The notes under the pieces are model-generated. The model saw nothing but the letters and a program-made list of their open reading frames with translations. It made no database searches and had not been told where the DNA came from. A stretch of DNA of 33,407 nucleotides, taken from NCBI RefSeq assembly GCF_001499735.1, contig NZ_LN848257.1:1108478-1141884 (forward strand). The letters run 5' to 3'. Source of the stretch: Thiocapsa sp. KS1. GTDB lineage: Bacteria; Pseudomonadota; Gammaproteobacteria; Chromatiales; Chromatiaceae. Positions 1,538 through 20,212 of the stretch are shown piece after piece (position 1 is the stretch's first letter; every line of letters starts with the position of its first letter). The translations under genes were made by a program, and so were the position numbers.

Positions 1538-4500
1538 CTAAAGACGGCCAATGCTTCTATCGAACTGCCCACGCGCCATCTGCAGACCAAGCCCACGCGT
1601 TTCCTCGTTCAGAACCAGCGCGAGCTCACGCTCGGCTGCCAGTAGAAGGTCATTGGCGATCCGTTCCAGGATCTCCAGCCGCTCCTCGCTTTCCAGATGA
1701 CGATGGCGCCGATCGTGCGCTTGTCGCAGGTTGCGAAACAGCGTCGCCAGGGCATCTCTGGCCAAACGGTCGACCTGCGCTGCGCGGGTACGATCCTCGA
1801 GCAGACGGCAGATCCGAGCCAAGGTCTTCGCGTTGGTCAGCCCGTCGTAAAGCGGATCGGGGTCGCCGATCGGCAGTGCGGGATCGGCCAAATCACCCAT
1901 GCGTTCAAGGATCGAGGACACCATCGCCGGATCGCTCCGCATCAGATCGATGACCGGTACATCGTCATGCCTCTTCACCAGCACGCGCTCGTAGTCTGGC
2001 TCCCCGCGTCGGCGGTAGTCCCTATAGAGGGCCACCGGCCTGCCGCCGCGCTGTGCCCAATCCAAGAGCTCGAGCGCCACGCCGCCGACGTAGGCGTCGA
2101 AGAGCGCCTGGTCCTGCGCCGCCTCGAGTGTCGGATCGATCTCGGGTAGAACGCCCGGCCGATGCCATTGCTTGTCGAGATGCGGTGTAAAGAAGGGATT
2201 TGGGGGTTCCGGGGTGGTGTCGCTCGTGCGCCATGGCGCTATCCACCATCGTCCGGTAGGCCGCGTAGTAGATGCCGCGCTGCGCCGCGGAGACATTATC
2301 CTCGGCACTCAAGCCTGGATTGAGTTTGCGTAGATCACGGAGCATCAGATTGACCTGCATGCTGAGACAGCTCAGCGTGTGGTCGGGAAACTCCGGCTCG
2401 ACCAGAGGTGTATTGCCGTTTGCCTGAGCGAACAACGCTTGAAACCGGACTGCGTTGCCGATATTGGCTTCATTGGCCGGCGAGATCGTCCAGAAGCGAT
2501 AGCCTTGGCCCGCCAATGGATCGGACAGGGCCAGCAATGGCGCGGATTGATTGGCAACGAGTGCAACGATCTCGTCCATCAACTCATCGGGGGAACGGCC
2601 GGCCAGCACCGCCTCCCGACGCATCGCCTCCAGCGCTGTCAGCCGGTAACTGTCGGCGAACTGCCGTGCGATGGTCTCTCGGCAATGTCCCTCAACCATC
2701 TGTTCGCGGAACAACGCATTGCCCGAGAAGGCCGGCAGAACCTCCCATGCGCCGGTTCTGCCCTCGGCGCGGAACCGTTCGATGAGCGCTTGCGTCAGCG
2801 CCGCATTCACTTTGTCTGCCCCATACGATGCGGCTTCGATCCGCACGCGCAGATCGGCCCAGGTGCGCTGCTTCGCGGCCCGATCGGCAAAGACATAACG
2901 ACTGCCGTCCGACAAACCGGACTCCGGGCTATGTGCCGTCTCCGCGCGGTTGACGTCGATCGTCAGCGTATCTTTGAGATCATTCAGATCATCGAAGAAG
3001 CGCTCGATCACGGAGAGCATCTGCACGACATAGTTGTCGAGCAAGTGATAGAGCTGGCGCTTGGTCCCCTCCTCGGCCAGCTTGCGCAACATCGCCAGAA
3101 CATTGTTGTAATGTTCGCGATAAGCGCTTGCAAATTCTCGGAAACGTTTATCGAGCCATTCCGGAACAGCCGATTCGGTGCGCTGTAATGCGACATCCAG
3201 GGCGCTCTCGATCGGTTTGGTATTGGGATCGTCGAAGGCCTCGCGGAGCGTCGTCTCGATTGAGGTGCGCTGATTCTGTTCAGTGAGCGCATTGGTGCGC
3301 TGTGTGATCAAGTCACGCAGTTGGTACAGAAAATAACGCACCTGGAGGAGATGCGGGCCACCGCGCAGGAGGTAGGACTCCAGGTGGTAGTCTTTCCACT
3401 CCGTCTCGCCGAGGAACATCGCGGCGATCACGCTATTGTGAAACAGATCGTGAACCACTCCGGCCAAACCGCGCTCGATCTCGTTGAAATCGGCCTTGAG
3501 CTGACGCTCATAGACCCGGACGTCGTCCGCAAGGGCGTGCTTATCGGAGAGGGCGTCCGCACCGAGATCCTCGCGCCCCTGCGCGGCCTTCAGCTTGGAG
3601 CTGCTTTGCCAGAACGCGCCGATGACGTGCCGCTCCAACGCATCCAGGAAGTCCTCGAACTGAATGCTTTGGGTTTCGTTGCCACGGTCGTCCTCGACGC
3701 GACGATACACGCCGGCATGAAGATCGCGAAAGAATCGGACCCGTTCCTGCAATGCCAAATGTTCGAGATTGCGCACGAAGGACTCGCCCCGCGTGGGTTT
3801 CTCGAGGTTGGTCTCGCCGTTGGCAACGCGGGCGTGGTAGCGCTGCATGTCGGCACGGAAGATGTCGTCGAGCCGCAGCCAATGGCCATGGAGCATCGAA
3901 AGACCGTAGCTCAACGCCAAATACTCGAGCATGGCTGTCTGGGGATAGACAATGGAGGCCAGACCGAGACCCACGATGCTGTTGTCCCCGCCCTGGAAGG
4001 CCGCATTGATCTTTGCGCGGACGTCATTGACCGCACGGGCGTTGAATGTCCCTCCTACCGGCGAGAACAGCAATGTGTAGGCCGCCTTGGCCGCCAGTTC
4101 GCGATAGGCTTCAAGACCGAGTCCAAGATTTCCGCCGGACTGGCTCTCGTAGTCCAGCAGCGTGACACTGGTAAAGGGGACGGCATCGCGTTTGAGGCCC
4201 TGGTCCATCGCATATTCGAATCGCACCGTCCGATTCGTGCGCTGTCGTGTCTGCATACCGATCGCATTCAATTCCTTGAGTGCAGCGTATCCGTTGGCGC
4301 GCACCGTCGGAATCTGGTCGGTCGGCAGACGCGCCGCCAGGGTCAGGATGTCGGGCAGGAGGAACAAACCGCGGATCTCCGGCGTGATACCGCGCGCTCT
4401 GAGCATACCGCCGAGCAAGAGTGCCGTCTGCAGGAACATCCCGGAACCGGTTCCGCCCGCAAGGGAGCCGACGATCAGCACATTGATCTTGCCGTCAAAC

Positions 4501-4937
4501 TGGGTCCGATTGTCCAGGCTGGCGATCGCGCTGATCGCATTGTCGATCGTGGCGAGCTTGCCGGCGTCCTGCAAGGCCACATCGAAGGCCATGCGCGACA
4601 GCATCCGAATCTGACCCGCACCGTCCAGGAGAACCATCTGTCGGACCTCGGCGACCAATTGATCGTCGTCGACAAACCACTCGTCCATCCGCTCGCCGTG
4701 ACGCCCGAGGACGGAGAAGACGGTCTCCGCCGTGCTGCTCTGAACGAGCTGATCGTCTTTCAGATGGTTGAGCTTATGAAGATCGTTGCTGTCCGTATCA
4801 AAACCCAGGATTCCGATCCGCCCGCTGTCCGCGATGCCGGTTTCCATCGACATCGCGTAGACCCGATCGGCAAGCCAACAGCCAATTCCTCCGACGCCGA
4901 CCAAAAGGGTTGGCCTTGGTTGCGCAAGCTCGGACAT
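1538..4937 (-). CDS. Tubulin/FtsZ-like GTPase, frameshifted near 2199-2206
   Basis: The ATG at 4937 has a strong GGAGGT site ten bases upstream. The N-terminus has a nucleotide-binding strand-loop (LLVGVGGIGCWLADRV, residues 11-26) and the tubulin-superfamily phosphate loop SLAGGTGSGMF (residues 158-168, GGTGSG core). This fits the large bacterial tubulin-like (Tubulin_2/FtsZ-like) proteins rather than cell-division FtsZ, which is about 400 residues. The first frame leaves its sense at about residue 910. The second frame resumes with NPFFTPHLDKQWH and runs to a TAG at 1538. Removing one base in the CCCCC-AAA tract joins them as G-T-P-N-P-F-F, giving about 1,131 residues. It lies 187 bases downstream of the vWA gene. 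Known families of this type are proposed to drive membrane remodelling with vWA partners (Makarova and Koonin). Function here is inferred from that context. Confidence 0.85.
2199..2206 (-). other. One-base frameshift in a T3-G5 homopolymer pair
   Basis: On the coding strand the tract reads CCCCC-AAA. Upstream the protein is in one frame (…MVDSAMAHERHHPGT), downstream it continues in the +1 frame (NPFFTPHLDKQWH). Dropping one base restores a continuous protein. Possible causes are a sequencing or assembly error, a real mutation, or programmed +1 slippage at CCC-AAA. No classical slippery motif with a flanking stop codon is evident, so error or mutation is more likely. Confidence 0.7.
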
Positions 4938-5124
4938 GATCGATCAACCTCCGATGATAAAAAATAGGCAGCGTCTTGACGCACTGATCAAGGCAACACC
5001 CGGCCGAAGTCGCGTTATGAACGCACACCGGCCGATCTGAACGAGGTCTCTTCGGCCCGCGGGCACCGCAGCCTGGCCTCGACAGCGTGGTCTGAGAACA
5101 CCAACGCTACTGACCCGCGCGTTT

Positions 5125-7665
5125 TCAATCGCATCCCCTGTTCTGCTGTTTCTCGCTGTCGGAGACAAAGAGATAGCGATATCCGTTCTGTTCGTCGCGC
5201 AGCTCGTCGTTCCAGACCAGATTGATGTCCCTGCGCTTGGGATTGGCCTCGAAGGTCTCGCGAAGAGGCTCGCCGGTCCGCGTGCGAAACGTCCCGTCCG
5301 AAAAGCTCGAGCCCCGGAGCAACGCGATGCCGGAGGCCCGTGCAACCAAAACCAAACCATACTCGACGCAGCGTTCATCGGAGCAGGTGAGCGACAAGAG
5401 GCGCCGCCAGGGTCGATGAAGCCGCCGTCGCTTCGGTACCGAGATGGAATCGATTTCACACCGCCACACCTGGCTGTTGCGCGGGAAATGCTGAGTGCGC
5501 CAGAGACAATAGAGCTTGAGGAGCAGCAGAAGGGTCGCCAGCAAGAGTGCGATCTCCTGCCAGCAGCGCTGCCACCAGACGACGGGGCGGATGTCGATGG
5601 GAACCTCGAGTCGATCGGTCTGACGCGAGTGCGGGTTGTCGTACGCAATGCGTACCGTCTGCGGACCGGAAGGCGTCAGGCAATCACACCACCAGCGTTT
5701 GCGCGGCAGCACCAGAATTCGGCGATCGTCGACCACTTGCAGCTCGGCAGGCAGGCCGGTGAGGCTTTCAACCGAGATGTGCTCCGCCGACAAGGGCGCC
5801 CGTAATCCTTCCGCGGACACATAGATCCCGTTCCCGTCGCCGACCTGCGTCACCGCTCGGGAAAACGGAGCCGACTGGTCCGGGAGACTATGCCCAGTCT
5901 CGAGCAGCCGCATGACGGCGATCGTCGGCGCCAGATCCAGCTCCAGCGCGGTCGCGCCGCGGAGCCCCTCCTCCGCCGGCTCCAGCGCAAGCCGAATGCG
6001 CGTCGATCGAGTCTCTTGATAGCGCTCGTCGTAGCGCAGCAGCAATGGGGTCGGTCTCTTGGGGCCAATCGTCAAGAGCCCCTGCCGATCGTCCTCCAAC
6101 ACCGGACGTCCGTCGGGATAGACGAGCGTAACCCCGCTGGGCAGCGGCCGATCCAACGCCAAACGGAATCGAGCCGCCTCGGGGACATCCGGCACCGCGG
6201 CATCGATTGCGTAAACGTCGTGAACCTGGCGATCCGAGCCCATCATGAGTTCAACCCGATCGTCCGCGCAATCCGGACAGGTCATAAGGTGGCGGCCGTG
6301 CAGCGCAGGCGTGACGTCGACATCCGCCTCGATCTGCAGGATCAGATCCCGCGAGCGGAGGTAGCTCACCCCCTTGATCCGCGCCACGACGCTGAGACTG
6401 AGCTGACCCGGGCGCTCGTAAGGCCCGGCGTTTGCGTCGGCGCGTTGCTCCTGATCGTCGAACCGCATCTCGCGGCCGATCAATCCGTCGTTCAACGTAA
6501 ATTCGGGTTTGATCCCCGTCCCGTAGAGATCGAGGGGCACGCGTTGACCGTCGACGAGATCCGTCAACCAAGCCTGCACCTGCACCGGCTCGCCACGGCG
6601 CACGCGTAACCGACCGGCGGCATCGGGCTGCAACGGCACCCCGTTCCGATCGAAGAGCGCTAGATCCAGCTCGAGCCCCGTGACAAACAGGACCCGATCA
6701 TCCGCGCGCAACGGCTGATCCAGCTCGATCTCATAGGCCGCTCTCGGCGACAAGGGCGCCTCGGGGGTCAAATGGACGATGCGCGCCCGGAGCCGTTGCT
6801 GCTCGCCGGGGTCCGGCTCGCGCATCTGAAGCTCGAACTGGATGGGCGGATCCTGCGCCAGCGTGAAGGAGCTCGTGCGCCAGCGCGCCGGCGCCTTCTG
6901 TTGATCTCCGCTGGTGAGAATGACCACGCGACGTACACTGAAGGGGAGCTCGAATCCGAGCTTGGCGCCGTCTTGGCGCACGAACCGGCCCGACTCGACA
7001 GGGTCGGCACCGACCAGGATCGACACCACGTCACGCAGGCCGGGCACGATCTCTTGGGCACGCTTGATCTCGGTGGCACCGGCCAGCGGAGAGCCGTTGA
7101 AAGCGGTCAAGAGCGCGCCGCGCACATCGACCGCAATGCTCTCTCCCGGCAGGGAGATGAAGAACACCTGAAAATTGCGCCCCGGAAAGCGCCCTCTCAG
7201 CGTCTCGTAGTCCTGCGCCAGGCCGGCGGGGGGTGCATCGCCGAAAGCACCGTCGGTGAACACGAGCAAGGCGGCATCCTCCGTCTCCGGCGTTGCTTCC
7301 ACCAGTTGCTCCAACATCCGCTGAAGCGGCTGATAGGGCGTGCTTCCACCGGTCTGCCAGTTCACGCGCATGTCCCTCAGGTACGACGCGCGCTCTTTCG
7401 AGGCCACTTCCGTGATGCGGCCTCGGTCACCGTTCAGCCGAACGACGAACAAGCGATCGGACTCGTCCAGCGCGCTGACGACCAACTGGGCGGCAAAGGA
7501 TGCCTTGTGGAATTTGCCGGACATGCTGCTGGAATCGTCGAAGACGAGTCCGACCACGCGCGCCTGGGTCAGGCCGTTGATCCCGAGCAGAAAGAAGGCA
7601 AGACAGGCGGCAACGAGCGCCGCGGTGCTGATTCTCCTGGTTGAAGTCCGTGCTACGCCCGACAC
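5125..7665 (-). CDS. von Willebrand A domain membrane protein
   Basis: From the GTG at 7665 the protein has 846 residues. Residues 10-35 form a signal peptide or N-terminal anchor (basic RRIS, hydrophobic AALVAACLAFFLLGI, ending TQA). A vWA domain follows at once: VVGLVFDDSSSMSG carries the MIDAS motif D-x-S-x-S (D43, S45, S47), with GGSTPY and VFTDGAFGD further on. The middle 450 residues look like beta-rich extracytoplasmic domains. A second transmembrane segment (IALLLATLLLLLKLY, about residues 705-727) precedes a basic cytosolic tail of about 125 residues. The start is uncertain: the frame is open to a TTG at 7923, and a TTG at 7779 has a GGGAGG just upstream. It is the probable first gene of the cluster with the tubulin-like GTPase. 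The CDS ends at a TGA at 5125-5127. Confidence 0.85.
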   Translation of the reverse strand: MSGVARTSTRRISTAALVAACLAFFLLGINGLTQARVVGLVFDDSSSMSGKFHKASFAAQLVVSALDESDRLFVVRLNGDRGRITEVASKERASYLRDMRVNWQTGGSTPYQPLQRMLEQLVEATPETEDAALLVFTDGAFGDAPPAGLAQDYETLRGRFPGRNFQVFFISLPGESIAVDVRGALLTAFNGSPLAGATEIKRAQEIVPGLRDVVSILVGADPVESGRFVRQDGAKLGFELPFSVRRVVILTSGDQQKAPARWRTSSFTLAQDPPIQFELQMREPDPGEQQRLRARIVHLTPEAPLSPRAAYEIELDQPLRADDRVLFVTGLELDLALFDRNGVPLQPDAAGRLRVRRGEPVQVQAWLTDLVDGQRVPLDLYGTGIKPEFTLNDGLIGREMRFDDQEQRADANAGPYERPGQLSLSVVARIKGVSYLRSRDLILQIEADVDVTPALHGRHLMTCPDCADDRVELMMGSDRQVHDVYAIDAAVPDVPEAARFRLALDRPLPSGVTLVYPDGRPVLEDDRQGLLTIGPKRPTPLLLRYDERYQETRSTRIRLALEPAEEGLRGATALELDLAPTIAVMRLLETGHSLPDQSAPFSRAVTQVGDGNGIYVSAEGLRAPLSAEHISVESLTGLPAELQVVDDRRILVLPRKRWWCDCLTPSGPQTVRIAYDNPHSRQTDRLEVPIDIRPVVWWQRCWQEIALLLATLLLLLKLYCLWRTQHFPRNSQVWRCEIDSISVPKRRRLHRPWRRLLSLTCSDERCVEYGLVLVARASGIALLRGSSFSDGTFRTRTGEPLRETFEANPKRRDINLVWNDELRDEQNGYRYLFVSDSEKQQNRGCD

Positions 7666-8004
7666 ATCGGCGCCCGGAGTCTCGCGGAACGCACGATCAA
7701 TCCGTGTCGGGGCATCATCACGACAGGACCAAAATCCTGGCCAACAACCCGAATTCGGACAGCATCCATGGACCAACAAGACATCCTCCCAACGTCCGGC
7801 GGCGATCTCAGGTCCGCCCCCCGTGTTCCCGGTGTCGAGACATGCACGCCACAGCAGGAACCACACGAGCGGGCTGCGCGCGACGGACGCGCCCTGCCAC
7901 GCGGACGAGAGTCTTAATGTCAAAACGAACGATCAAGGTTCACGACGCGCACCGAGTACGCGAGGTATCGGTAGACAGCCTGTCGACAACGGACAGCGGC
8001 CGTA

Positions 8005-8034
8005 AACATACGATTAGGCAATCAAAAGAGGCAA
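8005..8034 (-). promoter_or_regulatory. Candidate sigma-70 promoter for the vWA/tubulin-like operon
   Basis: On the minus strand TTGCCT (8034-8029) is followed after 18 bases by TATGTT (8010-8005). Local AT content is higher than in the surroundings. It lies 340 bases upstream of the GTG start and about 80 bases upstream of the earliest in-frame TTG. Two matches of moderate quality; inference from consensus only. Confidence 0.3.
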
Positions 8035-8442
8035 GCATTTTTCGCGGTCGCGTCGCGCTGCCGGGGCGCTTCCCGGTCACCGAAACGCTGGCGGGACTGC
8101 AGGGCGAGCGAACTCCAGGGACTGAGCAGGCCGCCGCCGGCGTCTCCATTAACGACCGACCGCCTCCTCAGGCAGAGCCGGACAGGACGGCGAATGCCCT
8201 TCTCGCAGCCGGCGTCGGTGAGGATCGCTCTGCCTCACGGGCGTTACTCACAGCCACCGGCGCCCCAATCGGGCGCATGTCATGACCGACCACCGCGGTG
8301 ATGCCCTTCGCGACTCATCCAACCGGGCGAAGGTGCGCTCGGGAAAGGCATCGCACCTTATCGTACCCCGTTGGCCACGCGCTTGAACTCGCAAAGCGGC
8401 AGCACGCGTTTATCGGATCATCTCCGCGGATTGCATTCGAAC
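8035..8442. other. Intergenic region with no gene recognised
   Basis: About 400 bases between the vWA promoter candidate and the 3' end of the receiver-like gene. Open frames here have arginine/serine-rich compositions typical of high-GC noise. I see no RNA gene, clear terminator or repeat. Confidence 0.4.
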
Positions 8443-8895
8443 TCACTCGCCCTTGATGTCGTCCCAGAGCTCACGTACCGCCTCGACCCAGGCCACGAAC
8501 TTCTGCTCGGTCATGTGGTAGTAGGGGATATGGGTGACCCAAAAACCCTTCTCCTCAAGTTGGCGCGCAACGCGCGGCGCCTGAACCTGATTAGTGGAGT
8601 GAATAAGGATGGGGATGTCGACAGAGAAATGAGCCATCAACGCCAGGGCAACGTCGGTGCCGGACAAGGAGGTGTCTTCCGTGGTCCGGGCGCGCTCCGC
8701 GAGGTCGTGATCCAGCAACACTCCGCTCCAGATATGCCCGGGGTCGCGGCGGATAACGCCGAGGGCCGTGCCGGCGGACTGCGCCCAGCGCAGCAGCACG
8801 TCCGGCGGCAACCACGATCGGAATTCCTGCTCGCGACCGGCGTTGTCCTCGATGAGCAGAAGCCGAAAGGGCATTGGCGATGGTCTAGCTGGCAT
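8443..8895 (-). CDS. Receiver-like protein, cREC type (cyclic-phosphate-processing receiver domain family)
   Basis: 150 residues from the ATG at 8895, or 143 from a second ATG at 8874 (MPFRLLLIEDN), which gives a more natural start. The first strand FRLLLIEDN resembles a response-regulator receiver with its acidic pair. The second acidic site is VLLDHDL (about residues 59-65), followed by SGTDVALAL, the strand IPILIHSTNQ and the strand FWVTHIPY. The LDHDL and IHS-N signatures fit the stand-alone cREC-type receivers rather than phosphorylated two-component regulators: no output domain and no conserved Lys after the T/S strand is visible. That family has been linked computationally to processing of cyclic phosphate ends. 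Here the role is unknown. Its neighbours are a 62-residue protein (upstream on the same strand) and the vWA operon downstream. Confidence 0.65.
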   Translation of the reverse strand: MPARPSPMPFRLLLIEDNAGREQEFRSWLPPDVLLRWAQSAGTALGVIRRDPGHIWSGVLLDHDLAERARTTEDTSLSGTDVALALMAHFSVDIPILIHSTNQVQAPRVARQLEEKGFWVTHIPYYHMTEQKFVAWVEAVRELWDDIKGE

Positions 8896-9096
8896 GGAGT
8901 TAGGATCCGCAAGGCTGAGGTCAATGCTATGGCGCAGGGAATGCGCGGCAGTCAGTCGCGGGGTGGAGCCGATGGGCGTTCCTCTGGCCCGCCATCTCCC
9001 GCGGATCTCGGATCAAACGCCAGACGACTCCTTCAGAGAATATTCCCGATCATGAAGCTCCGGCTTCGTGACCGGGAATGCGAGCACCAGTGTGAC

Positions 9097-9285
9097 TCAG
9101 CCTTCCTTGCGCGCTTCCTCCCGCGCCGCGTCGACGGCATCGTCGAACCGCGAAAAGCTGCCGCGATGCGGTTTTCCGTTCTTCTTGACGTAGTACTTCG
9201 GGGATCCAAGCAGCGACGTCTGCTCAAACACGTCGAACCGACTGTATTTTCCGTTCACCGTCTCGCGCAGTTGTTGGTCGGCCAT
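9097..9285 (-). CDS. Small conserved-looking hypothetical protein, 62 residues
   Basis: Starting at the ATG at 9285 the product begins MADQQLRETVNGKYSRFDVF and ends in a helical, charged DAVDAAREEARKEG. The frame is open upstream to 9360, but that extension is compositionally poor and the internal ATG has a weak GGAAC site nine bases upstream. The alternation of aromatic, glycine and charged residues (KYYVKKNGKPHRGSF) looks like a folded small beta-hairpin/helix protein, not noise. I do not recognise the family. It lies about 200 bases upstream of the receiver-like gene on the same strand, and could be co-transcribed. Confidence 0.5.
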   Translation of the reverse strand: MADQQLRETVNGKYSRFDVFEQTSLLGSPKYYVKKNGKPHRGSFSRFDDAVDAAREEARKEG

Positions 9286-9360
9286 GGACTGAGTTCCAGA
9301 TATTGTTGAAGAGTGGACTGCTCCGGCACGGAGTAGCATCCGCCGTGCTCGCTGGTCCAA

Positions 9361-10056
9361 CGCGGCAGCCCTGGTGATTTTGAATGCGCACGTTGCGATT
9401 CAAGAATGGACGCGGCTGACCATGACTGTCGGCACGGACGCCGACGCAGTCGCCCGGGATCGCCCTTCACCCTTCCCGACGTCGCGAAAGCTGGGCCTCG
9501 AATTCGTGCAGGGCCGGCACCGCGCAGCATCGCTGCAGTTCTCGTTCTTGTGCGATCCCCGAACGTTCCAACGGAACAAGGCCGCCTGGTGCCGCGCAGA
9601 TGGGAATATCTCAAACAGCTCCGCACAACGCACGCACGCCACCGGAGTGTCTTTCTCTTTAAAACAGTTCACATCGGAACGTTGAGGATGCAACGGGACA
9701 CGAACAAAAGCGGAAATCTTGACTGAACTCCCGCCGACGTGCTCGGACCGTCGCCGAAGGATCGCGCCCAGCAGTTTGACGCAACCGATTCTTCGATTCA
9801 GGTCCATGTGCAGGTGCAGTTGGCGTCTCGACTCGCTTGGTCCGCTCGTCGTATCGTACACGAAGACTGGCGATGCTCAGTAGCACCGGCAACATCCTGG
9901 GGCGACTGCGGCTCGCTCCGGGCATTCGGGGCAACCAGGAGCCAGCCATGACGAGCCGGGCCGTGAGACCCGATGTCGACCGGCCGATCGCGACTGAAAC
10001 GAAACCGGCAAGCACGGCTTTGCTGCTCCACCATCGAACAGGAGAGACGGAACGAC
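9361..10056. other. Region upstream of the radical SAM gene; no confident gene
   Basis: Nearly 700 bases. On the minus strand around 9465-9690 there are protein-like stretches split between two frames: one reads DTPVACVRCAELFE, another DIPICAAPGGLVPLERSG and ends at a TGA near 9465. This could be a small Cys-containing gene with a frameshift, or noise. I find no convincing promoter for the downstream plus-strand genes. Confidence 0.3.
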
Positions 10057-11427
10057 ATGAAGCCCTCGCGCTATAACCTGACCTCCGCAAATCCGGACAC
10101 CGGGGAAACGATCCTTTTCAATACCCTCTACGGGAGCACTGTCGCGGTCGACCGTGCGCATTGGCCCGTCGTCGCAGACCTGCTCGCGAGCTCGACGTCC
10201 GGAGACTGTGACTCCGATCCGCAGATCCTGGGCGCGCTCAAAAGAGGTCGGTTCATCATCGAGGACGGGGTCGACGAGCTTGCGATCGTGCAAAATCGCA
10301 AGACCTGCGGCATGAAGGACACCAATCGCGCCGACGTCATCATCATGCCGAACATGGATTGTAATTTCGCGTGTCCCTACTGCTACGAGAAGCACGATCG
10401 AACAAACCGGATGACACCCCGGACGGAATCGGCACTCAAGGTCTGGCTAGGGAACGTCATCGACGAGCACAAACTCGTTCTGCTCAATTGGTTTGGCGGG
10501 GAGCCACTGCTCAGCCCCGGCACCATTCTGTCCATCGGCGAATTTGCGCGCAATCGCTGTCGTGAGAAGGGAGTCAGCCTGCTCGCCCACATCACAACGA
10601 ACGGCTACGCCTTGACGCCCTCGCTTATCTCGAGGCTGATCGACATTGAGATCTTCGGTTATCAGATCACCATGGACTGCCCGGCTCACATTCATGATCG
10701 GACGCGCATCCTGAGATCCGGGAAAGGGACTTTCGGCAGGATACTGGACAACGTAATTACGCTCTGCGAAGCCAACGACCAGGTGAAGATCGCCCTGAGG
10801 GTCAATTTCAATCACAAGAACATCGACGCCATACCCGACTTGCTCGCCCAGTTCCCCCAGCAGATCCGATCGCAGCTCAGAGTCGTCTACGAGCCGGTCT
10901 TCGGCGACGCGGCGCAAAGCGCAACGGCCAATTTGGCCGGGGCCGCGATTTCAAGCGCCTTGACGCGCTATTACGAGCTCGCGGCGAGCATTGGATTCGA
11001 CGTCGTGCTCGGCGGACTCGGGATCGGTAAGCTGGCATACTGCTACGCCGAGCGCGAGCATCAATACATCGTCAATTTCAATGGCGACGTCTTCAAGTGC
11101 TCGGTGGGCGACTTCGCCGGGTCCGGGCGCGTCGGCTTCATCGACGCCGAGGGCGTGTTCGTTCGAGACCAGGACAAATGGGACGACTGGTTCTCGATGG
11201 ATCTGTTCGAAGAGCACTGTAAAGACTGCAGTTTCCTGCCGCTCTGCATGGGCGGATGCCGCAAAGACCGCATCGAGAACAAGCGTACCGGGAGCTACTG
11301 CCATCTGGTCCCGACCAACACGTCTCACGCGCTCAAATCCGTGGCATTCGGCAGTTTCAAAGAGATCCTCAGCAGAGAGGTGAAAATTTCGCGCGACTGC
11401 GCGAAGGCCCGGCAAACGGTCGACTGA
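10057..11427 (+). CDS. Radical SAM/SPASM peptide maturase
   Basis: 456 residues from the ATG at 10057, with GGAGAG about 12-16 bases upstream. Residues 1-80 form an N-terminal domain (SRYNL, ILFNTLYGS, RGRFIIEDGVDEL) like those that precede the core in peptide-modifying SPASM enzymes. The radical SAM 4Fe-4S motif is CNFACPYC (C102, C106, C109, i.e. C-x3-C-x2-C). The SAM-binding WFGGEP follows at 145-150. The C-terminal SPASM domain supplies C329, C348, C388, C391, C397, C401 and C415, enough for two auxiliary clusters (CSFLPLCMGGC is typical). Such enzymes install thioether or C-C crosslinks in ribosomal peptides. The 45-codon Cys-rich gene 33 bases downstream on the same strand is the obvious substrate. 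No transporter or protease gene adjoins. The specific crosslink is unknown. Confidence 0.9.
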   Translation: MKPSRYNLTSANPDTGETILFNTLYGSTVAVDRAHWPVVADLLASSTSGDCDSDPQILGALKRGRFIIEDGVDELAIVQNRKTCGMKDTNRADVIIMPNMDCNFACPYCYEKHDRTNRMTPRTESALKVWLGNVIDEHKLVLLNWFGGEPLLSPGTILSIGEFARNRCREKGVSLLAHITTNGYALTPSLISRLIDIEIFGYQITMDCPAHIHDRTRILRSGKGTFGRILDNVITLCEANDQVKIALRVNFNHKNIDAIPDLLAQFPQQIRSQLRVVYEPVFGDAAQSATANLAGAAISSALTRYYELAASIGFDVVLGGLGIGKLAYCYAEREHQYIVNFNGDVFKCSVGDFAGSGRVGFIDAEGVFVRDQDKWDDWFSMDLFEEHCKDCSFLPLCMGGCRKDRIENKRTGSYCHLVPTNTSHALKSVAFGSFKEILSREVKISRDCAKARQTVD

Positions 11428-11448
11428 TTGCCTTCGTCAACCAAGCAT

Positions 11449-11454
11449 GGAGAG
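11449..11454 (+). promoter_or_regulatory. Ribosome binding site of the precursor peptide gene
   Basis: GGAGAG with a six-base spacer to the ATG at 11461. It supports translation of this very short gene and fixes its start. Confidence 0.7.
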
Positions 11455-11460
11455 ATCCAA

Positions 11461-11598
11461 ATGCACACCATCACCGAACCTTTGACGGAAGAGGAAATCC
11501 TGGCCGCCACGTCTCCGGAGGCCACCGGCGAGCAGATCAAGGCCGACGTTGAAACCAAGGCGCAATGCTGCGTCGACCATTTGTGCGGCTGCAAGTAG
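11461..11598 (+). CDS. Cys-rich RiPP precursor peptide (45 residues)
   Basis: ATG at 11461, TAG at 11596-11598, too short for ordinary gene callers. The N-terminal part (MHTITEPLTEEEILAATSPE and on to about residue 34) is acidic, helical and free of Cys, as expected for a leader. The C-terminal core QCCVDHLCGCK holds all four cysteines (C36, C37, C42, C44) in a CC-x4-C-x-C pattern and ends in Lys. It has a good ribosome binding site and starts 33 bases after the radical SAM/SPASM gene, so the two are almost surely co-transcribed. I do not recognise the core as belonging to a named class; it is not an evident SCIFF/ranthipeptide repeat or a Nif11-type leader. Modification by thioether (Cys to alpha- or beta-carbon) bridging is an inference from the enzyme type. 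Confidence 0.8.
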   Translation: MHTITEPLTEEEILAATSPEATGEQIKADVETKAQCCVDHLCGCK

Positions 11599-11603
11599 CC
11601 CGT

Positions 11604-11676
11604 TAGGCGGGGATTGGTAAGTCGCCCTGAGGCTCGGGCTTCGCCGGCTAACTGATTCCCCGCACCGCCCCGCCTA
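11604..11676. repeat. Inverted repeat after the precursor gene
   Basis: TAGGCGGGG at 11604-11612 is matched by CCCCGCCTA at 11668-11676, with a loop of 55 bases. It starts six bases after the precursor stop. No T-run follows, so an intrinsic terminator is not demonstrated. It might stabilise the mRNA end or be a remnant of a small repeat. Confidence 0.35.
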
Positions 11677-11713
11677 GTTACGCCGTTCCGCGGTGTAACG
11701 AGGAGGACCGGAT

Positions 11714-11746
11714 GCTCCGTGCCCCGAAGACACTGGGGCGCGGAGC
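11714..11746. terminator. Strong hairpin between convergent genes
   Basis: GCTCCGTGCCCC pairs with GGGGCGCGGAGC (12 pairs, one of them G-U on one strand) around a nine-base loop. It sits between the plus-strand RiPP unit and the 3' end of the minus-strand NTPase gene, which ends at 11821. Neither side has a clear T-tract, so it is at best a weak bidirectional terminator or processing hairpin. Confidence 0.35.
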
Positions 11747-11820
11747 GCAGAATAGACGCGTAACAACGCGGAGCGGTGCCATGAGAGACGAAAAACCACG
11801 CTAAATACACAATCGGTCGA

Positions 11821-14800
11821 TCAAGCTTTCCAAACAACTCGAGTCGCTGAAAAAACCTCCCGGTCATCCGGATCAAGGGAGTAGAGTTTCTCGTCCACGG
11901 TCTGGTCGATGCGGTCTTGGAGCCCAAATAGGTCAATCCTAGGACGCTTGCGCTGACACGCCTCGACGGCCTGCTGTCCAAGCAGCTCCCAGGGACCTTT
12001 GAGACGCTGAACTCGGTCGAAATGCGCCTGCACAATCTTCATTTGATACCGCACTTCATCGTCTGATGAGCCAGACGACACAACCGCTCGCAGCAGTGCA
12101 ACGGTCTCAAGCATCAGCGCGATGCCTCTAAGGCCGTAGACCCGACAACGCGTACGTGTCTTTTCCAGAAGAGCATCATGCTCCGGAGCAGCTGGCCACA
12201 ACACCTCCTGTTTCCAAAGCAAGTAGGCCCCGCCCAGTGCGAGGAGGTATTCGGCTCCTATCCGGTCAGCCAATTCCAGCGCCCGCTCATTTGACGCCAG
12301 CGCTCTCGGCCAATTGCCCATACCGGCATGGACGTTACTCTGGTAGATCAGGCCATAGGCTTGGTCCCAGGCGTAGTCCAGCTCATCTGCAACGGTCAAT
12401 CCCTCGGCAAGCGAGTCGGCGGCCTCAGCAGACTTTCCGACCGACCAGAGAACCATCGACCTGCCGATCAGCGCGAGGTCGATCGCGTCGGGGAAACACG
12501 CCCTCTTAGAAGCGTCAATCGCGTCCCGATAAACGTGTAATGATGCCCCATACTCGTGGCATCCCCAATGAGCATCGGCCAAGTTCACAAGATTCAGCGC
12601 CACACCCGGTCCGTATTCCAATCGTCGAACAATCGAGATCGCCTGGCGGTGCGTCCGGAGGCAGCCGGCGTTATCGTCGGTGTTGTGCTCGACACACCCT
12701 TTGCCCTTGAGCAGATCCCAATGCCGAAATAGCCGTTCGTCCTCGGGCAGACCCTTCGCGGCCTGGATGCGGCTGAGCGCCTCCGTATAGGCGCCGTGCG
12801 CTTGGTCGTTACGACCGGTGATGAAGCAGACATAGCCTTCTTCGGCGAGAAGGTCGAGGTCCACCCGATCGTCGCGCTCAAGCCTCGGCTCGACTCGGAG
12901 CCGGTCGATCGCCTCGCGGGCTTCCGACACCCGGTTCGACATCACGAGTAGCCGGATGCGCTGAACCCGCGCCTGGTGTCGTCGCGCCGAATCGGTCTCG
13001 ATAGCCAGCCACTGGTCTACCACTGCCAGCTGCGCCGCGCGGTCGCCGAGTGTGCGATAGAGCTCCACGGCGGACTCAAGCACGCTCGTGTCGTTAGAGC
13101 TGAGGAACCACCTCAGCATGTGCCGATAAGCGTCCTCTCGGTAGCGCTGAATTTGCACAACGAGAGGGATGAGATACTCGCGGACCAGTGGTGAACCGAT
13201 CCGCGCCAGCAGCGGATCCAGGCAATCCAGCCGGCCTTCCCGAAGTGCCGCACCGAGTACGAATCTGATCGCACCGCCTTCCTCCTCAAGGTGCTGCTCC
13301 GGTTGTCGCAGGAGTGCATCGATGCGTTCGGCAAGTTCGGTAGGCGTGGGGCTGGCATCGCCGATGATTCGTCCGATCATGTACTCTGCGTACGATTGAT
13401 GGACGAAGCGGTAGCGACCACCAGAGTCGACTAGGAGTACGCCCAGATCGAGCAACTGTTCCAGGGGGTCTAGGCACACTAGGCGGCTGTAATCGTCTCT
13501 GCCTTCGGCCCACTTCGCGCGGATGCGCTCGGCAATATCCGCCGGGAGAGACGGCTCCGTTGCGGACAGGCAGGCTCCGGCAACCCGAAGTGCCGTTTCG
13601 GCCTGCTCCGAGGAGAGGCGACCCTTGTGGAAGCGCTCGAAAACCGTTAGAGGTGAGGCGCCCGGCTCCAACGACGTTCCGTCGAACGACTCCATGAACA
13701 ACCGCAACATCAGCGGATGACGGCACAACTGGCGAATCGCCTCCGGCAGGTGGTCGAACCCGGTCGCGCAGGCTGGCAAGCCGGCTGCGGACGCTGCCAC
13801 CGCCCGGTACCGCTCGAAGGTGGTGCGCAGCTCGGCCTCGGAAAACCGAGGGAGCAGAATTCGGCAGCTTGGCCGGCCCGACTCGTCCGGCCAGCGGACA
13901 AACCCCCGCTCGTTCCGGGGCCAGATCTCGCCGACCGCCTTAAATCGGGCGGCCAGGGTGTCGTATGCGCCGCTGCGGACCGTCACGACGCACCGCATCC
14001 ATCTTCGCCGACGCAAGAGCCCGACCAAGTGGTCGACCTCGCGCAGCTGGCCATAAGGATCGGCGGCCTCGTTGACTGCGTCCAACAGCAGCAGACATCT
14101 CACCGCGCTGCCATCGGCGTCGGTTACGCCCAACCCCTCGGCCATCGCATCGAGTAGGGCGCTCCAATCATCGGTGCCGGTGACGACAAACAATTCCGCG
14201 AGAGCGCAGCCTAATGATCCGAGCCGAGGCGGCTCGAAAGGCTGGCCCTGCCCACCTCCGGACAGATTCTTACCGTCGAGGAGCAGAGGCAGAAAACTTC
14301 GGTCCTGGTCGGCAAGTGCAACGGCCGCTGTGTGGCACAGCAGGGACGTTTTCCCAGCTCCACTTTCGGCGACGAGCAGCAAGCAGACCTCGCGCGAGGC
14401 ATCGGCCGTCAGGTCGCCGATCGCAGCGGAGAAGCGCCGTCGGTCCTCGTAAACCTCTGGTATGTACTTGGTTCCGCGCAGCCCGAGGATCGTCTCAGTA
14501 GTTGCCTGGACGAGCCGCCGGCCCAGAGAATGAGCGCCCCACTTCGACGCGGCCGTCGGCTGGGTGAATACTGTGTCGATGACACTTTGGTACCGCAAGC
14601 CAGAGGTCACCTTCCGTGCGGCTCCGAGGTAATAAGCGACGCGTTTGCCGATGCCTTCAAACGTGAACACCGCCTCGCTCAGACCGTCCACCCCGTCATC
14701 GTCGAGGCGCCCAACAAATAACGGGGCGAGCCGCAAATAAGCTTCGGAGTGCGGCCGATGGAGAAGGCAGTCGCCCGGCTGCCGCCCGTCGCGCTCGTCG

Positions 14801-16146
14801 CCTGCCAGATTCAGTCGCACGACCGCGAAGGACTCACGGGGGCCACGCAACTCCAGTGCCTCGAACCCTGACTCGGCTCCACCGACCAACCGATAGAGCC
14901 GGACATCGGTTAGGAAGTGGAACTCCCCAAGGATCCGCGCAAAGTGCCCGAGATAACGGTCGTATACGTCGGCCGCTTGCTGCTCAGTTGGCGGGAGGGC
15001 ACCGTGTGCGAGGACATTCCGCAATTTGAGCATCGCTTCGAGAGGCGACATCCGAGCAACCGGCCCGGAGAAATCGACTTGTAAACAACCCTCACAGCTT
15101 TGCTGATGCAGGCGCTTCAGGGCTCCTAGGCACTCCGGCAAGAAAGCCCTTACCCCCGCCCGCTCGAACACGGATGGAATAGTCTGCAGCACCCGCATCC
15201 AATGACCCAGCGCGGGCCGGTGAAGGTCGCCGAGGGCGGCGTCGCCTTCAGGGCAGCGCACTTCCGGCCGGGCCGTATAGTCACTGACTAGGCACAGAGC
15301 CAGGAAGCGCACGACCTGTGCGAATGCGTGAGTGAGCAGGTGCAGCCGGCGGAACCCATCGGCCTCGGCGAGTGCCAGGTGCAACGGCAACGCCATCCCG
15401 TAGGGCAGCAGATCCACCGGTGGAAGCTCCGCTGGAATTCGGGCTAGTGGAGCGCTGGCCTGGGACAACTCAGCCCGGATGTCTCGGCCGACAATCCGGC
15501 TCAGAAACTCAAGTTCCTCGATCAAGACCTCGTGCGCAGGCCGACCACCGGGGAAAGTGCGTCCGCAAAAAGTGGCGGTGACCCACCCAGGATAGTCCTC
15601 GAACGTCATCGGATCGGTGTCCGAATCGTGCAGACCGACCCTATGCGTTGCGCCGTATTTCGTGGTAATCGGATGAAGCCAGCACCCGATAGGTTTGTAG
15701 TACCACTTGAACCGCCCTCGTGCCTCCGAAAGCTGCTGCAAACTACACCTACCATCCGGCGCCAGAAAGACACACGCAGTGTCATTAAAGTGGGCAGGGA
15801 AACCCGGAACGTTCTTGGAGAACAGACGCGGCGCCACTGCGGTCTTCTTGCCGGACGCGACACCCTTCCAGGACCCCTCGACGATGACTTGTTTTGGCAG
15901 TTGCACCCCGAGAGAGGCGAAGAACTGTCCCTCATTGTCAGCCAGTGCCTGGAGGATCAGGGCGGCTTCATCGCCGACATATATGCCGTCGTAACAGCAC
16001 ATACCCCGACACTGAGTCAAATCGCAACGCTGCAGTGGCCGGCGGAGCGACTCGGCGGCAACACTCGACGCGCCGAGTTGATTCCGTAATCGGAACTCCT
16101 CCTCTACGAACGCGGTGCAAGACAGTTCGGGTTCAGGCACTCGCAT
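11821..16146 (-). CDS. STAND NTPase with N-terminal Cys cluster, HEPN-like motif and TPR repeats
   Basis: 1441 residues from the ATG at 16146. Residues 38-200 match the DUF3109/YkgJ-like cysteine pattern: CDLTQCRGMCC (C41, C46, C50, C51), then C125, C134 (DGRCSLQQL) and C155 (KPIGCWLHPI), suggesting a metal or Fe-S site. Residues 250-420 are a helical domain with LRNVLAHG (R376, H381), the R-x4-H motif of HEPN domains. The NTPase has a Walker A AESGAGKTS (593-601), Walker B CLLLLDAVNE (684-693) and TVRSG (722-726), followed by HPLMLRLF and a winged-helix-like segment ending FVHQSYAEYM. Residues from about 1000 to 1350 are TPR-like repeats. This order (possible effector, NACHT-like switch, repeat sensor) resembles antiviral STAND proteins such as Avs. 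The Cys cluster as effector or redox sensor is inference. No clear ribosome binding site precedes the ATG. Confidence 0.85.
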   Translation of the reverse strand: MRVPEPELSCTAFVEEEFRLRNQLGASSVAAESLRRPLQRCDLTQCRGMCCYDGIYVGDEAALILQALADNEGQFFASLGVQLPKQVIVEGSWKGVASGKKTAVAPRLFSKNVPGFPAHFNDTACVFLAPDGRCSLQQLSEARGRFKWYYKPIGCWLHPITTKYGATHRVGLHDSDTDPMTFEDYPGWVTATFCGRTFPGGRPAHEVLIEELEFLSRIVGRDIRAELSQASAPLARIPAELPPVDLLPYGMALPLHLALAEADGFRRLHLLTHAFAQVVRFLALCLVSDYTARPEVRCPEGDAALGDLHRPALGHWMRVLQTIPSVFERAGVRAFLPECLGALKRLHQQSCEGCLQVDFSGPVARMSPLEAMLKLRNVLAHGALPPTEQQAADVYDRYLGHFARILGEFHFLTDVRLYRLVGGAESGFEALELRGPRESFAVVRLNLAGDERDGRQPGDCLLHRPHSEAYLRLAPLFVGRLDDDGVDGLSEAVFTFEGIGKRVAYYLGAARKVTSGLRYQSVIDTVFTQPTAASKWGAHSLGRRLVQATTETILGLRGTKYIPEVYEDRRRFSAAIGDLTADASREVCLLLVAESGAGKTSLLCHTAAVALADQDRSFLPLLLDGKNLSGGGQGQPFEPPRLGSLGCALAELFVVTGTDDWSALLDAMAEGLGVTDADGSAVRCLLLLDAVNEAADPYGQLREVDHLVGLLRRRRWMRCVVTVRSGAYDTLAARFKAVGEIWPRNERGFVRWPDESGRPSCRILLPRFSEAELRTTFERYRAVAASAAGLPACATGFDHLPEAIRQLCRHPLMLRLFMESFDGTSLEPGASPLTVFERFHKGRLSSEQAETALRVAGACLSATEPSLPADIAERIRAKWAEGRDDYSRLVCLDPLEQLLDLGVLLVDSGGRYRFVHQSYAEYMIGRIIGDASPTPTELAERIDALLRQPEQHLEEEGGAIRFVLGAALREGRLDCLDPLLARIGSPLVREYLIPLVVQIQRYREDAYRHMLRWFLSSNDTSVLESAVELYRTLGDRAAQLAVVDQWLAIETDSARRHQARVQRIRLLVMSNRVSEAREAIDRLRVEPRLERDDRVDLDLLAEEGYVCFITGRNDQAHGAYTEALSRIQAAKGLPEDERLFRHWDLLKGKGCVEHNTDDNAGCLRTHRQAISIVRRLEYGPGVALNLVNLADAHWGCHEYGASLHVYRDAIDASKRACFPDAIDLALIGRSMVLWSVGKSAEAADSLAEGLTVADELDYAWDQAYGLIYQSNVHAGMGNWPRALASNERALELADRIGAEYLLALGGAYLLWKQEVLWPAAPEHDALLEKTRTRCRVYGLRGIALMLETVALLRAVVSSGSSDDEVRYQMKIVQAHFDRVQRLKGPWELLGQQAVEACQRKRPRIDLFGLQDRIDQTVDEKLYSLDPDDREVFSATRVVWKA

Positions 16147-16669: not shown

Positions 16670-17058
16670 TCAAGCATCCGACTCTCGGCGCCCGAGTACA
16701 CAGAGGTAGCTCTCGTGCTTCTCGCCGACCAGACCAAGCGCGGCAGCACGCGTGATCCCGCGGGACTCGATCAGCTCGCGGGCGACCACGGCGACCCAGC
16801 GCGACCGCCCCGCGTGGCAGTGGACCAGGATTCGCCCACCCGCAACCACGACGTCGGCGATGAACCTAAGTGCCTCCCGCGCACGTCGCGCAGGTCGTTG
16901 CCGGGGCCGTCGACCAACGGGACGCAGAGCACCTCCACGTCCTCCTTGCCCTCGTCGCAGCAGTCCGACTTCATGCACAGCAGCGCGTCCACGTCCGACG
17001 GCAGGGTAACGGCGTCCCCGAAGTTTCCGATCGCGATCTGGTCGGTGATCCAGTCCAT
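16670..17058 (-). pseudogene. Decayed dual-specificity phosphatase, left copy of the duplication
   Basis: The start (MDWITDQIAIGNFGDAVTLP) is nearly identical to the intact copy at 19826-20212. After NDLRDVR a two-base GC insertion (16879-16882, ctcccGCGCacg against ctcccGCacg in the other copy) shifts the frame. The catalytic region still reads ILVHCHAGRSRWVAV in the shifted frame, so Cys and Arg of the loop survive, but the Ser after Arg became Trp. The tail after about base 16700 no longer matches the intact copy. The indel is not in a homopolymer, so real decay is likelier than sequence error. Confidence 0.75.
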
Positions 17059-17761: not shown

Positions 17762-17880
17762 GACGTGCGCGTATGCCGTCCGACGTTGTCATGTACCGCG
17801 GACGGCGCCCGCGCCGCAAACCGCATCCACGGCAATCCGGGCCACGGCCTGGCCGGTTTGACATCCGCTCGAGGAAACCC

Positions 17881-19209
17881 ATGAAGCCCTCTGTCCCTGA
17901 ACGCCCTCACCATGCCGGCTGGTTGACCATCGTCTCGTTGATCCTGCTCGTACTCGCGGCGATCGGGTCAACGCAGCCTCTGCTGGCCGCCTCGGCTGAC
18001 GTCAGGGATCCGCTGCTCATACCACCGGACGCCCGCTATGCCCCGCTCCGTCAGGCCATCGACGCTGCTCCCCCACGGGTCGACGATGACCTGGACGCCC
18101 TGGCCGCCTTCCTCGGCGGGCTTGCCAACGACGACTGCGGCCGTGCCTACGCGATCTATTACTGGCTGTCACAGAACATCGCCTATGACACCAAAGGCTT
18201 CTTCACCGGCGAATTCGGCAGTCTGACGCCCGAATCGGTCCTGCAACGCCGCGAGGCGGTCTGCTCCGGCTACTCGCGGCTGTTTCAAGCCCTCGCCACC
18301 CGCATAGGGCTCGACTCCCGCGAGATCTCCGGCGTCTCCAAGGGCTACGGCTGGTCGACCGACGGCACACTCGGTGACCATGCCTGGAACGCCGTGCGCA
18401 TCGATGGCCAATGGGGGCTCATCGATGCCACCTGGGGCGCCGGCCATCTAAATGATCAGAACCGATTCGTCCGGGCCACCGACGACTTCTACTTCCTGAC
18501 GCCGCCGGAGCGATTCATCTACAACCACCTGCCTAAGGATCCCGCCTGGCAGCTGCTGCCCGCGCCGATCTCCCACGCCGAGTTCCTGGCGCTGCCGGAC
18601 CTCGCTCCCGCCTTCTTCGTCCGCGGCCTCGAGCTGATGGACAATGTCGGCGCAGTGCTGAAAACCGGCAAGCAGTTGTCGCTGGAGCTGCGGAGCAACC
18701 AGGATGTGGTCACCGCCATGAGCGTCGAGCGCAACGGCCAGAAGGTGCCCGAGCAGCACTCTTTCATCGAGCGCGACGGTGACCGCTTCCATCTACAGGC
18801 GCTGCTGCCAATGCCGGGACGCTACGAGCTGCGGTTGTTCGTGAAGCCTGCCGACGCCCCGGGTCCGTACGACCAGGCCGTGCGCTTCACCGTCGACGCC
18901 AGTACCGGCGCCGGCGGCAAGGCCGGCTTCCCGCAGCAGACCTCGACCTATCAGACGCGCAGAGTCACTGGCCTTGCGCCCCTGGCCTATCACCTGCCCG
19001 CCGGCCAGCCGCAGCATTTCGACTTGCGTGTCCCCCGGGCCAATGCCGTCGCGTTGGTGAACAGCACCGGGGAATGGCATCAGCTCACCGCCGTCGGGGA
19101 CCGCTGGCGGGGCAACCTCGCCGCCCCCTCCGGTCCGCTGCAGCTTCTCGCTCAATTCGACCCGGCCAACAACAGTTACGATGTGTTGGTCACCTATCAG
19201 GTGGAGTGA
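17881..19209 (+). CDS. Secreted transglutaminase-like cysteine peptidase
   Basis: 442 residues from the ATG at 17881, with GAGGA seven bases upstream. Residues 12-37 are a signal peptide (TIVSLILLVLAAIGS, then LLAASA). The transglutaminase-like core has the catalytic triad in the usual order: Cys in REAVCSGYSRLF (C128), His in GDHAWNAVRI (H167) and Asp in GLIDATWGAG (D182). The sequence around the triad, including YDTKGFF and the DATWGAG/DQNRFV segment, resembles the KY/kyphoscoliosis-type peptidases of the superfamily. Residues 240-442 form beta-rich repeats without catalytic motifs. It is probably exported to the periplasm or cell surface to cleave or crosslink proteins. It sits between the two copies of the phosphatase module, and no operon partner is evident. 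Confidence 0.85.
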   Translation: MKPSVPERPHHAGWLTIVSLILLVLAAIGSTQPLLAASADVRDPLLIPPDARYAPLRQAIDAAPPRVDDDLDALAAFLGGLANDDCGRAYAIYYWLSQNIAYDTKGFFTGEFGSLTPESVLQRREAVCSGYSRLFQALATRIGLDSREISGVSKGYGWSTDGTLGDHAWNAVRIDGQWGLIDATWGAGHLNDQNRFVRATDDFYFLTPPERFIYNHLPKDPAWQLLPAPISHAEFLALPDLAPAFFVRGLELMDNVGAVLKTGKQLSLELRSNQDVVTAMSVERNGQKVPEQHSFIERDGDRFHLQALLPMPGRYELRLFVKPADAPGPYDQAVRFTVDASTGAGGKAGFPQQTSTYQTRRVTGLAPLAYHLPAGQPQHFDLRVPRANAVALVNSTGEWHQLTAVGDRWRGNLAAPSGPLQLLAQFDPANNSYDVLVTYQVE

Positions 19210-19825: not shown

Positions 19826-20212
19826 TCATGGCCCAAGCACCTCGTCGATGCCGTCCGAGAGGTAGATCTCACGCTTCGCGCTGATCAAGGCCAACGCTGC
19901 CCGCCTCGTCATCCCTCGGGACTCGACCAGATAGCGAGCGACCACGGCGACCGAGCGCGACCGCCCCGCGTGGCAGTGGACCAGGATTCGCCCACCCGCA
20001 GACACGACGTCGGCGATGAACCGCACCCCCTCCCGCACGTCGCGCAGGTCGTTGCCTGGTCCATCGACCAAGGGGATGCAGAGCACCTCGACGTCTTCGC
20101 GGCCCTCGTCGCAGCAGTCCGCCTTCAGGCACAGCAACGCCTCGATATCCGCCGGCAGCGAGACGGCATCCCGGTAGTTCCCGATCGCGATCTGGTCGGT
20201 GATCCAGTCCAT
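19826..20212 (-). CDS. Dual-specificity protein phosphatase, intact copy
   Basis: 128 residues from the ATG at 20212; the frame is open further up, but similarity to the left copy starts at this Met and an AGGAGTC-like site (on the minus strand, CAGGAGTCGCCGACATG) precedes it. The signature loop HCHAGRSRS (HC-x2-G-x2-R-S) carries the catalytic Cys and phosphate-binding Arg. The general-acid Asp probably lies in the PLVDGPGNDLRD loop. Length is that of a minimal DSP domain, without targeting or accessory domains. The double CC in LKADCCDEG is conserved in the dead copy. Substrate unknown. The kinase at 22130-26257 is a possible counterpart by proximity only. Confidence 0.85.
   Translation of the reverse strand: MDWITDQIAIGNYRDAVSLPADIEALLCLKADCCDEGREDVEVLCIPLVDGPGNDLRDVREGVRFIADVVSAGGRILVHCHAGRSRSVAVVARYLVESRGMTRRAALALISAKREIYLSDGIDEVLGP

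Follow-up and report, generated by a model that had tools for sequence, protein, structure and literature searches.

Several described RiPP systems resemble the locus considered here. The Clo7bot system, for which the annotated ctpM locus of Paraclostridium bifermentans (L017) served as the reference, gives the best NCBIfam match, and it has M-x-x-I-x-x-P precursors with short Cys-rich cores. However, in L017 many tandem precursors lie upstream and ABC transporters lie downstream, whereas our locus has one downstream precursor, no ABC transporters and a different core. CefA/CefB (NF038107) and TIGR04463 give similar whole-length scores and also have Cys-containing targets, but the CefA target of Methylomagnum (L014) is a 2,040-base gene and our precursor has only 45 codons. 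A Cys-every-fifth pattern is missing in our core. The SCIFF ranthipeptides, with the maturase CteB, provide the solved structure closest to our model, and they share a SPASM maturase, with an RRE that is only predicted in ours, and a 45-residue precursor; our precursor differs in having four Cys rather than six, and its core is unrelated.

Three further systems are relevant to the chemistry or the possible role. In NxxcA, the sulfur of Cys23 is joined to Asn20, three residues upstream, and this acceptor-x-x-Cys spacing is shared by D39-x-x-C42 of our precursor (excerpt of PMC8326336). The same excerpt gives Cys-Asp thioether links for freyrasin, made with PapB, whereas a link to D39 in our peptide is only predicted. 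Intracellular anti-phage lanthipeptides encoded in defence islands are a RiPP precedent for action on phages within the cell (excerpts of PMC12360287; see also PMC12715929), but the enzyme class and chemistry are different, and here one copy is on a phage contig.

The locus is in a stretch of 33,407 nucleotides from Thiocapsa sp. KS1 (NZ_LN848257.1, positions 1,108,478 to 1,141,884), here called the window; positions are those of the window unless a comparison locus (L number) is named. Its peptide was not recognised in published work in the open-licence literature. Our best reading is that the unit represents a new subfamily of radical SAM/SPASM RiPPs with a frozen core, probably thioether-linked, and without dedicated export, of which the matches listed contain one copy in a host island and one on a phage contig.

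The gene pair

The initial annotation reported a complete radical SAM/SPASM maturase gene followed by a 45-codon gene with its own ribosome binding site (RBS), and took the two to be a RiPP unit. Both genes are correctly placed (Table 1), and the maturase has C102, C106 and C109 as well as seven SPASM cysteines. The second gene starts 33 nt after the maturase stop and encodes MHTITEPLTEEEILAATSPEATGEQIKADVETKAQCCVDHLCGCK, which ends in KAQCCVDHLCGCK. Its GC content at codon positions 1, 2 and 3 (0.56, 0.44 and 0.80) is coding-like, the values for the maturase gene being 0.55, 0.42 and 0.78, and it has a homologue behind the nearest maturase found. No Rfam match was found in the window, and neither a sigma-70-like promoter nor a plus-strand terminator behind the precursor gene was found within positions 9300-11900.

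Table 1. Positions of the maturase and precursor features in the window and on the viral contig (L189)
Feature	Position	Strand	Evidence or remark
Maturase RBS, AGGAGAG	10040..10046	+	Sequence
Radical SAM/SPASM maturase, 456 aa	10057..11427	+	ATG 10057, stop 11425-11427
Precursor gene RBS, GGAGAG	11449..11454	+	Sequence
Precursor gene, 45 codons	11461..11598	+	Codon-position GC; L110 homologue
Leader, residues 1-32, Cys-free, M-x-x-I-x-x-P start	11461..11556	+	L110 alignment, motif count
Invariant core region KAQCCVDHLCGCK, residues 33-45, CC-x4-C-x-C	11557..11595	+	L110 identity
Maturase and precursor unit	L189 5031-6531	-	Flanked on both sides by long plus-strand genes
Tail fibre/central tail fibre J gene	L189 1226-4942	+	phrog_5616, phrog_31
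phrog_6040 gene, non-contractile tail-sheath TIM barrel	L189 6730-10560	+	

The short ORF could be a chance reading frame, and no family model recognises the precursor. However, only one ORF of this kind (RBS-preceded, 25-100 codons, at least four Cys within the last 14 residues and no earlier Cys) was found in the window, and only one in total across 60 random sequences of the same length and dinucleotide frequencies. Together with the conservation of 13 of 13 core residues across eight synonymous changes (see below), this rules out a chance frame, a reading to which we give practically no weight. The pair is confirmed as a real two-gene RiPP unit, of which the product and role are predicted.

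The precursor and its invariant core

The closest homologue among the matches listed, with 51 % identity over residues 1-435, is a maturase (L110) encoded by an uncultivated viral contig of 17.8 kb (IMGVR_UViG_3300043540_000937). A 45-codon ORF encoding MRVIKRPKKETEIRSSVDPKTSRDKIVKEMVAKAQCCVDHLCGCK is located 25 nt downstream of this maturase gene (L110 4361-4498). The last 13 residues of the two precursors are identical (13/13), and the nearest maturase found thus has a like gene behind it, which bears out the two-gene unit. Of the 13 core codons, eight differ, and every difference is synonymous. By comparison, the two maturases are identical at 223 of 443 aligned positions, with saturation at synonymous sites. 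This indicates that the core has been held fixed as protein and not as DNA, and on the comparison of these two loci the core peptide is under selection as protein.

The leaders align without gaps but share only 7 of 31 identities over residues 2-32, with a substitution score that was equalled in 4 of 100,000 shuffles; the ungapped alignment and the shuffle result point to diverged homologous leaders. The leader had been described as Cys-free and acidic, and of these properties the acidity is not conserved, the net charge of residues 1-32 being -7 in the window and +5 in L110. Similarly, all Cys do fall in the proposed core (QCCVDHLCGCK), but its boundary must be moved because the conserved part begins at K33, not Q35. 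Neither precursor is matched by an NCBIfam model, and the window precursor has no match in Pfam, in keeping with the earlier placement of the core outside the named RiPP classes.

The leaders start MHTITEP (window) and MRVIKRP (L110), both fitting M-x-x-[ILVM]-x-x-P, a motif that is our own reading of the L017 peptides and not a published definition. Most annotated Clo7bot precursors of L017 also have an M-x-x-I-x-x-P start (MKFIKKP). ORFs with this leader motif and at least two Cys were found on the coding strand at 12 of 93 loci (36 ORFs) and on the opposite strand at 5 of 93 (7 ORFs). The excess near related maturases is modest; L017 and L044 contribute 17 of the 36 ORFs, and L043, one of the 12 loci, looks chance-like.

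The expectation that related maturases would be followed by the same precursor held for the 51 % identical homologue and failed for the distant ones (25-32 % identity), which lack this core, though some carry Cys-rich peptides of their own. At one of these, in Zixibacteria (L030 6392-8003, plus strand), six short M-x-x-[ILM]-x-x-P precursors, each with a CCC core, are behind one maturase gene; we regard these as a RiPP family of their own, related to the one described here. Further copies of the precursor were not found in the KS1 genome, where two other matches had E values of 1.45 and 2.85, or in plasmids. Two records of one Gordonia phage, found with the L110 precursor as query (E 5), were taken as chance matches.

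The maturase

The radical SAM CX3CX2C motif (C102, C106 and C109, in CNFACPYC) is invariant in 45 aligned sequences. The SPASM cysteines are C329, C348, C388, C391, C397, C401 and C415, and an additional cysteine, C448, is outside the SPASM motif. The scores exceed the cut-offs for both Pfam Radical_SAM (42.6 bits, cut-off 29.5) and the NCBIfam SPASM domain TIGR04085 (45.3 bits, cut-off 27). However, among the best 25 of 58 matching NCBIfam families, the cut-offs of the RiPP maturase families are not reached. The best match is the Clo7bot maturase TIGR04334 (182.4 bits, cut-off 600), followed by the geopeptide maturase (177.9 of 400), CefB (NF038107, 174.7 of 600), TIGR04463 (173.7 of 525), PapB (87.2 of 340) and the SCIFF maturase TIGR03974 (72.7 of 425), and membership in each of these six families is ruled out on this basis. 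The L110 maturase has a similar profile, with 183.2 bits for TIGR04334 and the RiPP-maturase cut-offs likewise missed. A PADLOC match to prokaryotic viperin (pVip, 41.6 bits) was also rejected; as the NCBIfam viperin cut-off is missed (40.9 of 180 bits), it is read as general radical SAM similarity.

A predicted model of the maturase (pLDDT 85, pTM 0.85) has CteB (5why, 5wgg) as its best Foldseek match, followed by TigE, anSME and ChlB. In the model, the N-terminus comprises strands at residues 7-11, 18-22 and 27-31 and helices at 36-44, 55-63 and 74-86. Three strands and three helices are the layout expected of an RRE, and the N-terminal approximately 90 residues are predicted to be RRE-like, the CteB match being one of the whole chain.

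The radical SAM domain of the window maturase also has an extra cysteine in its conserved D-G motif. C208 (D207-C208, 10678-10683) replaces a G that is present both in L110 and in 44 of 44 aligned homologues, and this copy could consequently be unusual or impaired.

Distribution

The KS1 genome has one copy of the maturase gene, and the sole other match there is weak (29 % identity). When used as the query, the window maturase found no match in viral contigs. A search of viral contigs with a 45-row alignment (A2) recovered at least 600 stretches, and the best 80 of at least 130 relatives, at 79 loci, include no long match above about 30 % identity other than L110, and one 69-residue piece (L148) at 40 %. 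A profile built from the window and L110 maturases found the same L110 contig only. In plasmids there were 24 maturase records, 20 of them listed at 23-32 % identity, and in phages there were 10 (22-36 %). Genome contigs yielded at least 591 stretches, the best 80 of at least 535 relatives being 25-32 % identical. Near-full-length matches other than L110 do not exceed 32 % identity among the matches listed.

Overlapping draws of genomes were searched at E 1e-20, or 1e-15 for the family draw. Maturase matches, all at no more than 32 % identity, were found in 1 of 92 other relatives, 1/368 genomes of the class, 4/298 of the phylum, 6/209 of the family and 2/209 of the order. With the window and L110 profile, another proteobacterial class gave a match in 1 of 337 genomes at E 1e-30, and a second draw from the phylum gave matches in 2 of 397 others at E 1e-40; these are genomes already matched at 31 % and 25 % identity. 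One match in a member of the family (L098) resembles, in our judgement, foreign AT-rich DNA. In a tree of 92 of 94 rows (L062 and L092 were omitted as over-long, and L110 is absent), the window maturase is on a long branch beside a Bacteroidota clade with weak support (83).

The DNA of positions 9000-11900 had no match in plasmids. In viral contigs, the strict core pattern was found in the L110 contig only, and looser patterns at 1, 7 and 8 further sites (16 in total). Of these, the L191 site is out of frame within a phage gene and was rejected, and in the 15 others tblastn (E 1e-3) found no relative of the window maturase. The L204 site falls within a 144-codon frame, in register and close to its end. 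In L208 (6257-8223, minus strand), a different type of radical SAM protein (Pfam 72.5 bits) is encoded on the same strand as a CCDDHLCGC match, at a distance of about 0.9 kb. This match is taken as chance because it is not in the reading frame of the 141-residue ORF that contains it and no start codon precedes it, but L208 is the one case against a clean negative for the core outside the L110 contig. Among the matches listed, there are only two instances of the maturase with the invariant core.

Genetic context of the two copies

The context of the L110 copy was examined in a larger piece of its contig (L189), which covers the contig beyond its first 4.5 kb. The tail fibre gene of Table 1 (L189 1226-4942) is itself preceded by a DUF2460/minor tail protein gene, and the phrog_6040 gene is followed by one with baseplate and tail fibre matches. 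Phage morons are often placed in this way between phage genes, and the L110 copy appears to be a moron-like insert between tail genes.

Positions 8000-13500 are absent from 10 other genomes of the genus, except that 4 of the 10 contain a dispersed repeat about 50 bases long. This places the window copy in DNA that is strain-specific relative to these 10. The repeat is located just behind the unit (11735-11788); its copies in the four genomes are 84-86 % identical, and there is one more copy in the KS1 genome. It may be a REP element, as the L104 copy follows an ORF that by eye resembles a REP-associated transposase.

The earlier observation that transport and protease genes are absent nearby stands, no RiPP-type gene of either kind being found when the 20 other ORFs of the window were compared with Pfam. 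In the same scan, no transporter or immunity gene was recognised near the unit, and no dedicated trimming or receptor gene was seen beside it. The KS1 genome has no match to the C39 peptidase domain, which was matched by 8 of 14 controls, and three matches to TldD/PmbA. This combination is compatible with trimming by TldD/PmbA and with a product that acts without an exporter of its own, and proves neither.

Convergent with the unit is a gene for a 1441-residue protein (11821-16146, minus strand) with an odd mix of domains: a Cys-rich DUF3109-like N-terminus (27 bits, cut-off 33.5), an NTPase-like middle (nSTAND1 and NACHT below cut-off) and C-terminal TPR, together with a weak Avs2 match (15.5 bits). 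A further gene on the minus strand encodes a protein kinase with WD40 repeats (22130-26257) that strongly matches the PADLOC PD-T4-6 kinase models (best 221 bits). A TacA-like antitoxin gene adjoins a GNAT gene. These defence-like neighbours rest partly on weak matches and are read as hints only.

A Tubulin_2 protein (151.6 bits, cut-off 27) and an adjoining protein with weak von Willebrand A matches (2022-7923, minus strand) possibly form a two-gene system. A cREC_REC domain protein (8443-8895, minus strand) scores 27.6 bits (cut-off 27), and the DNA of 8459-8869 has a second copy, with 67 % identity, on contig 3 of the same genome. A transglutaminase-like gene (17773-19209) lies between two minus-strand stretches (16771-17058 and 19826-20404) that resemble each other. 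The second is a dual-specificity phosphatase gene (56.2 bits), and the first, with no Pfam match of its own, looks by eye like a broken copy.

Proposed mechanism

We consider it probable that the unit, with its fixed core and predicted crosslink, is a compact two-gene RiPP cassette that has moved between replicons. The N-terminal domain of the maturase would hold the leader by its M-x-x-I-x-x-P end, as the RRE of CteB binds its leader as a strand (excerpt of PMC8326336). The [4Fe-4S]/SAM centre would then make a 5'-deoxyadenosyl radical. In this enzyme family, the radical and the SPASM clusters join cysteine sulfur to carbon, and the maturase would make such a link in KAQCCVDHLCGCK. By analogy, we lean towards a thioether of some kind, at slightly better than an even chance. 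A tentative first guess, less likely than an even chance, is that C42 is joined to the beta carbon of D39; this pair is named first because its spacing equals the Asn-x-x-Cys of NxxcA. C36, C37, C44 and H40 could form more links or bind metal. The product may act in the cell or, once trimmed (TldD/PmbA being a candidate for this), be exported by a shared route; that it takes one of these courses is probable.

A crosslink that is not a thioether (carbon-carbon or other), or epimerisation, is unlikely. SPASM enzymes catalyse several such reactions and there is weak similarity to cyclophane makers (YhhB, 53.4 of 445 bits), but the usual cyclophane partners are Trp, Tyr and Phe, none of which is present in the core, and the nearest models are those of maturases of Cys-rich peptides. 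Even less weight is given to the core being a metal-binding peptide (CC-x4-C-x-C with D39 and H40), with the maturase making a small change or serving as a metal or redox partner. Four Cys and one His within 10 residues, all invariant, would suit metal binding. However, the radical SAM and SPASM cysteine sets are complete, and the best structural match of the model is a thioether-forming enzyme.

Possible role

A role in phage-host or phage-phage conflict is suggested by the copy among tail genes on a viral contig and by the position of the window copy in strain-specific DNA. It is the likeliest of the roles considered, but is offered as a guess that we regard as doubtful. The more specific proposal of a portable phage or island RiPP, carried as a phage moron, of which the frozen, crosslinked 13-residue end acts intracellularly and excludes competing phages or steers the host, is a shade more doubtful. 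Alternatively, phage carriage might be incidental, and the product might serve as a signal or in the manner of a cofactor, with a structure that is exactly defined, as is the case for PQQ, mycofactocin or SCIFF peptides. The invariant core and the lack of a C39 exporter in the genome are consistent with this, as is the connection of SCIFF-derived ranthipeptides with quorum sensing (the title of a work cited in the excerpt of PMC8326336). The distribution is very sparse, with no close homologue in 209 other family/order genomes, unlike that of housekeeping cofactors, and neither a trimming nor a receptor gene dedicated to the unit was seen next to it; this alternative is likewise possible but doubtful. 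A secreted bacteriocin-like toxin is improbable. Many small Cys-rich RiPPs are such toxins and Clo7bot loci carry ABC transporters (L017), but here no transporter or immunity gene was recognised nearby, the genome has no C39 domain and the core does not diversify.

Many RiPP families combine a conserved leader with a variable core. Here this is reversed, as it is the leader and half of the enzyme that have changed and the core that is constant, and this argues for a product whose structure is exactly defined. With two genes and a conserved target of 13 residues, the system would be easy to reconstitute, and because one copy is located among phage tail genes, it can be tested directly why a phage would carry a modified-peptide pathway.
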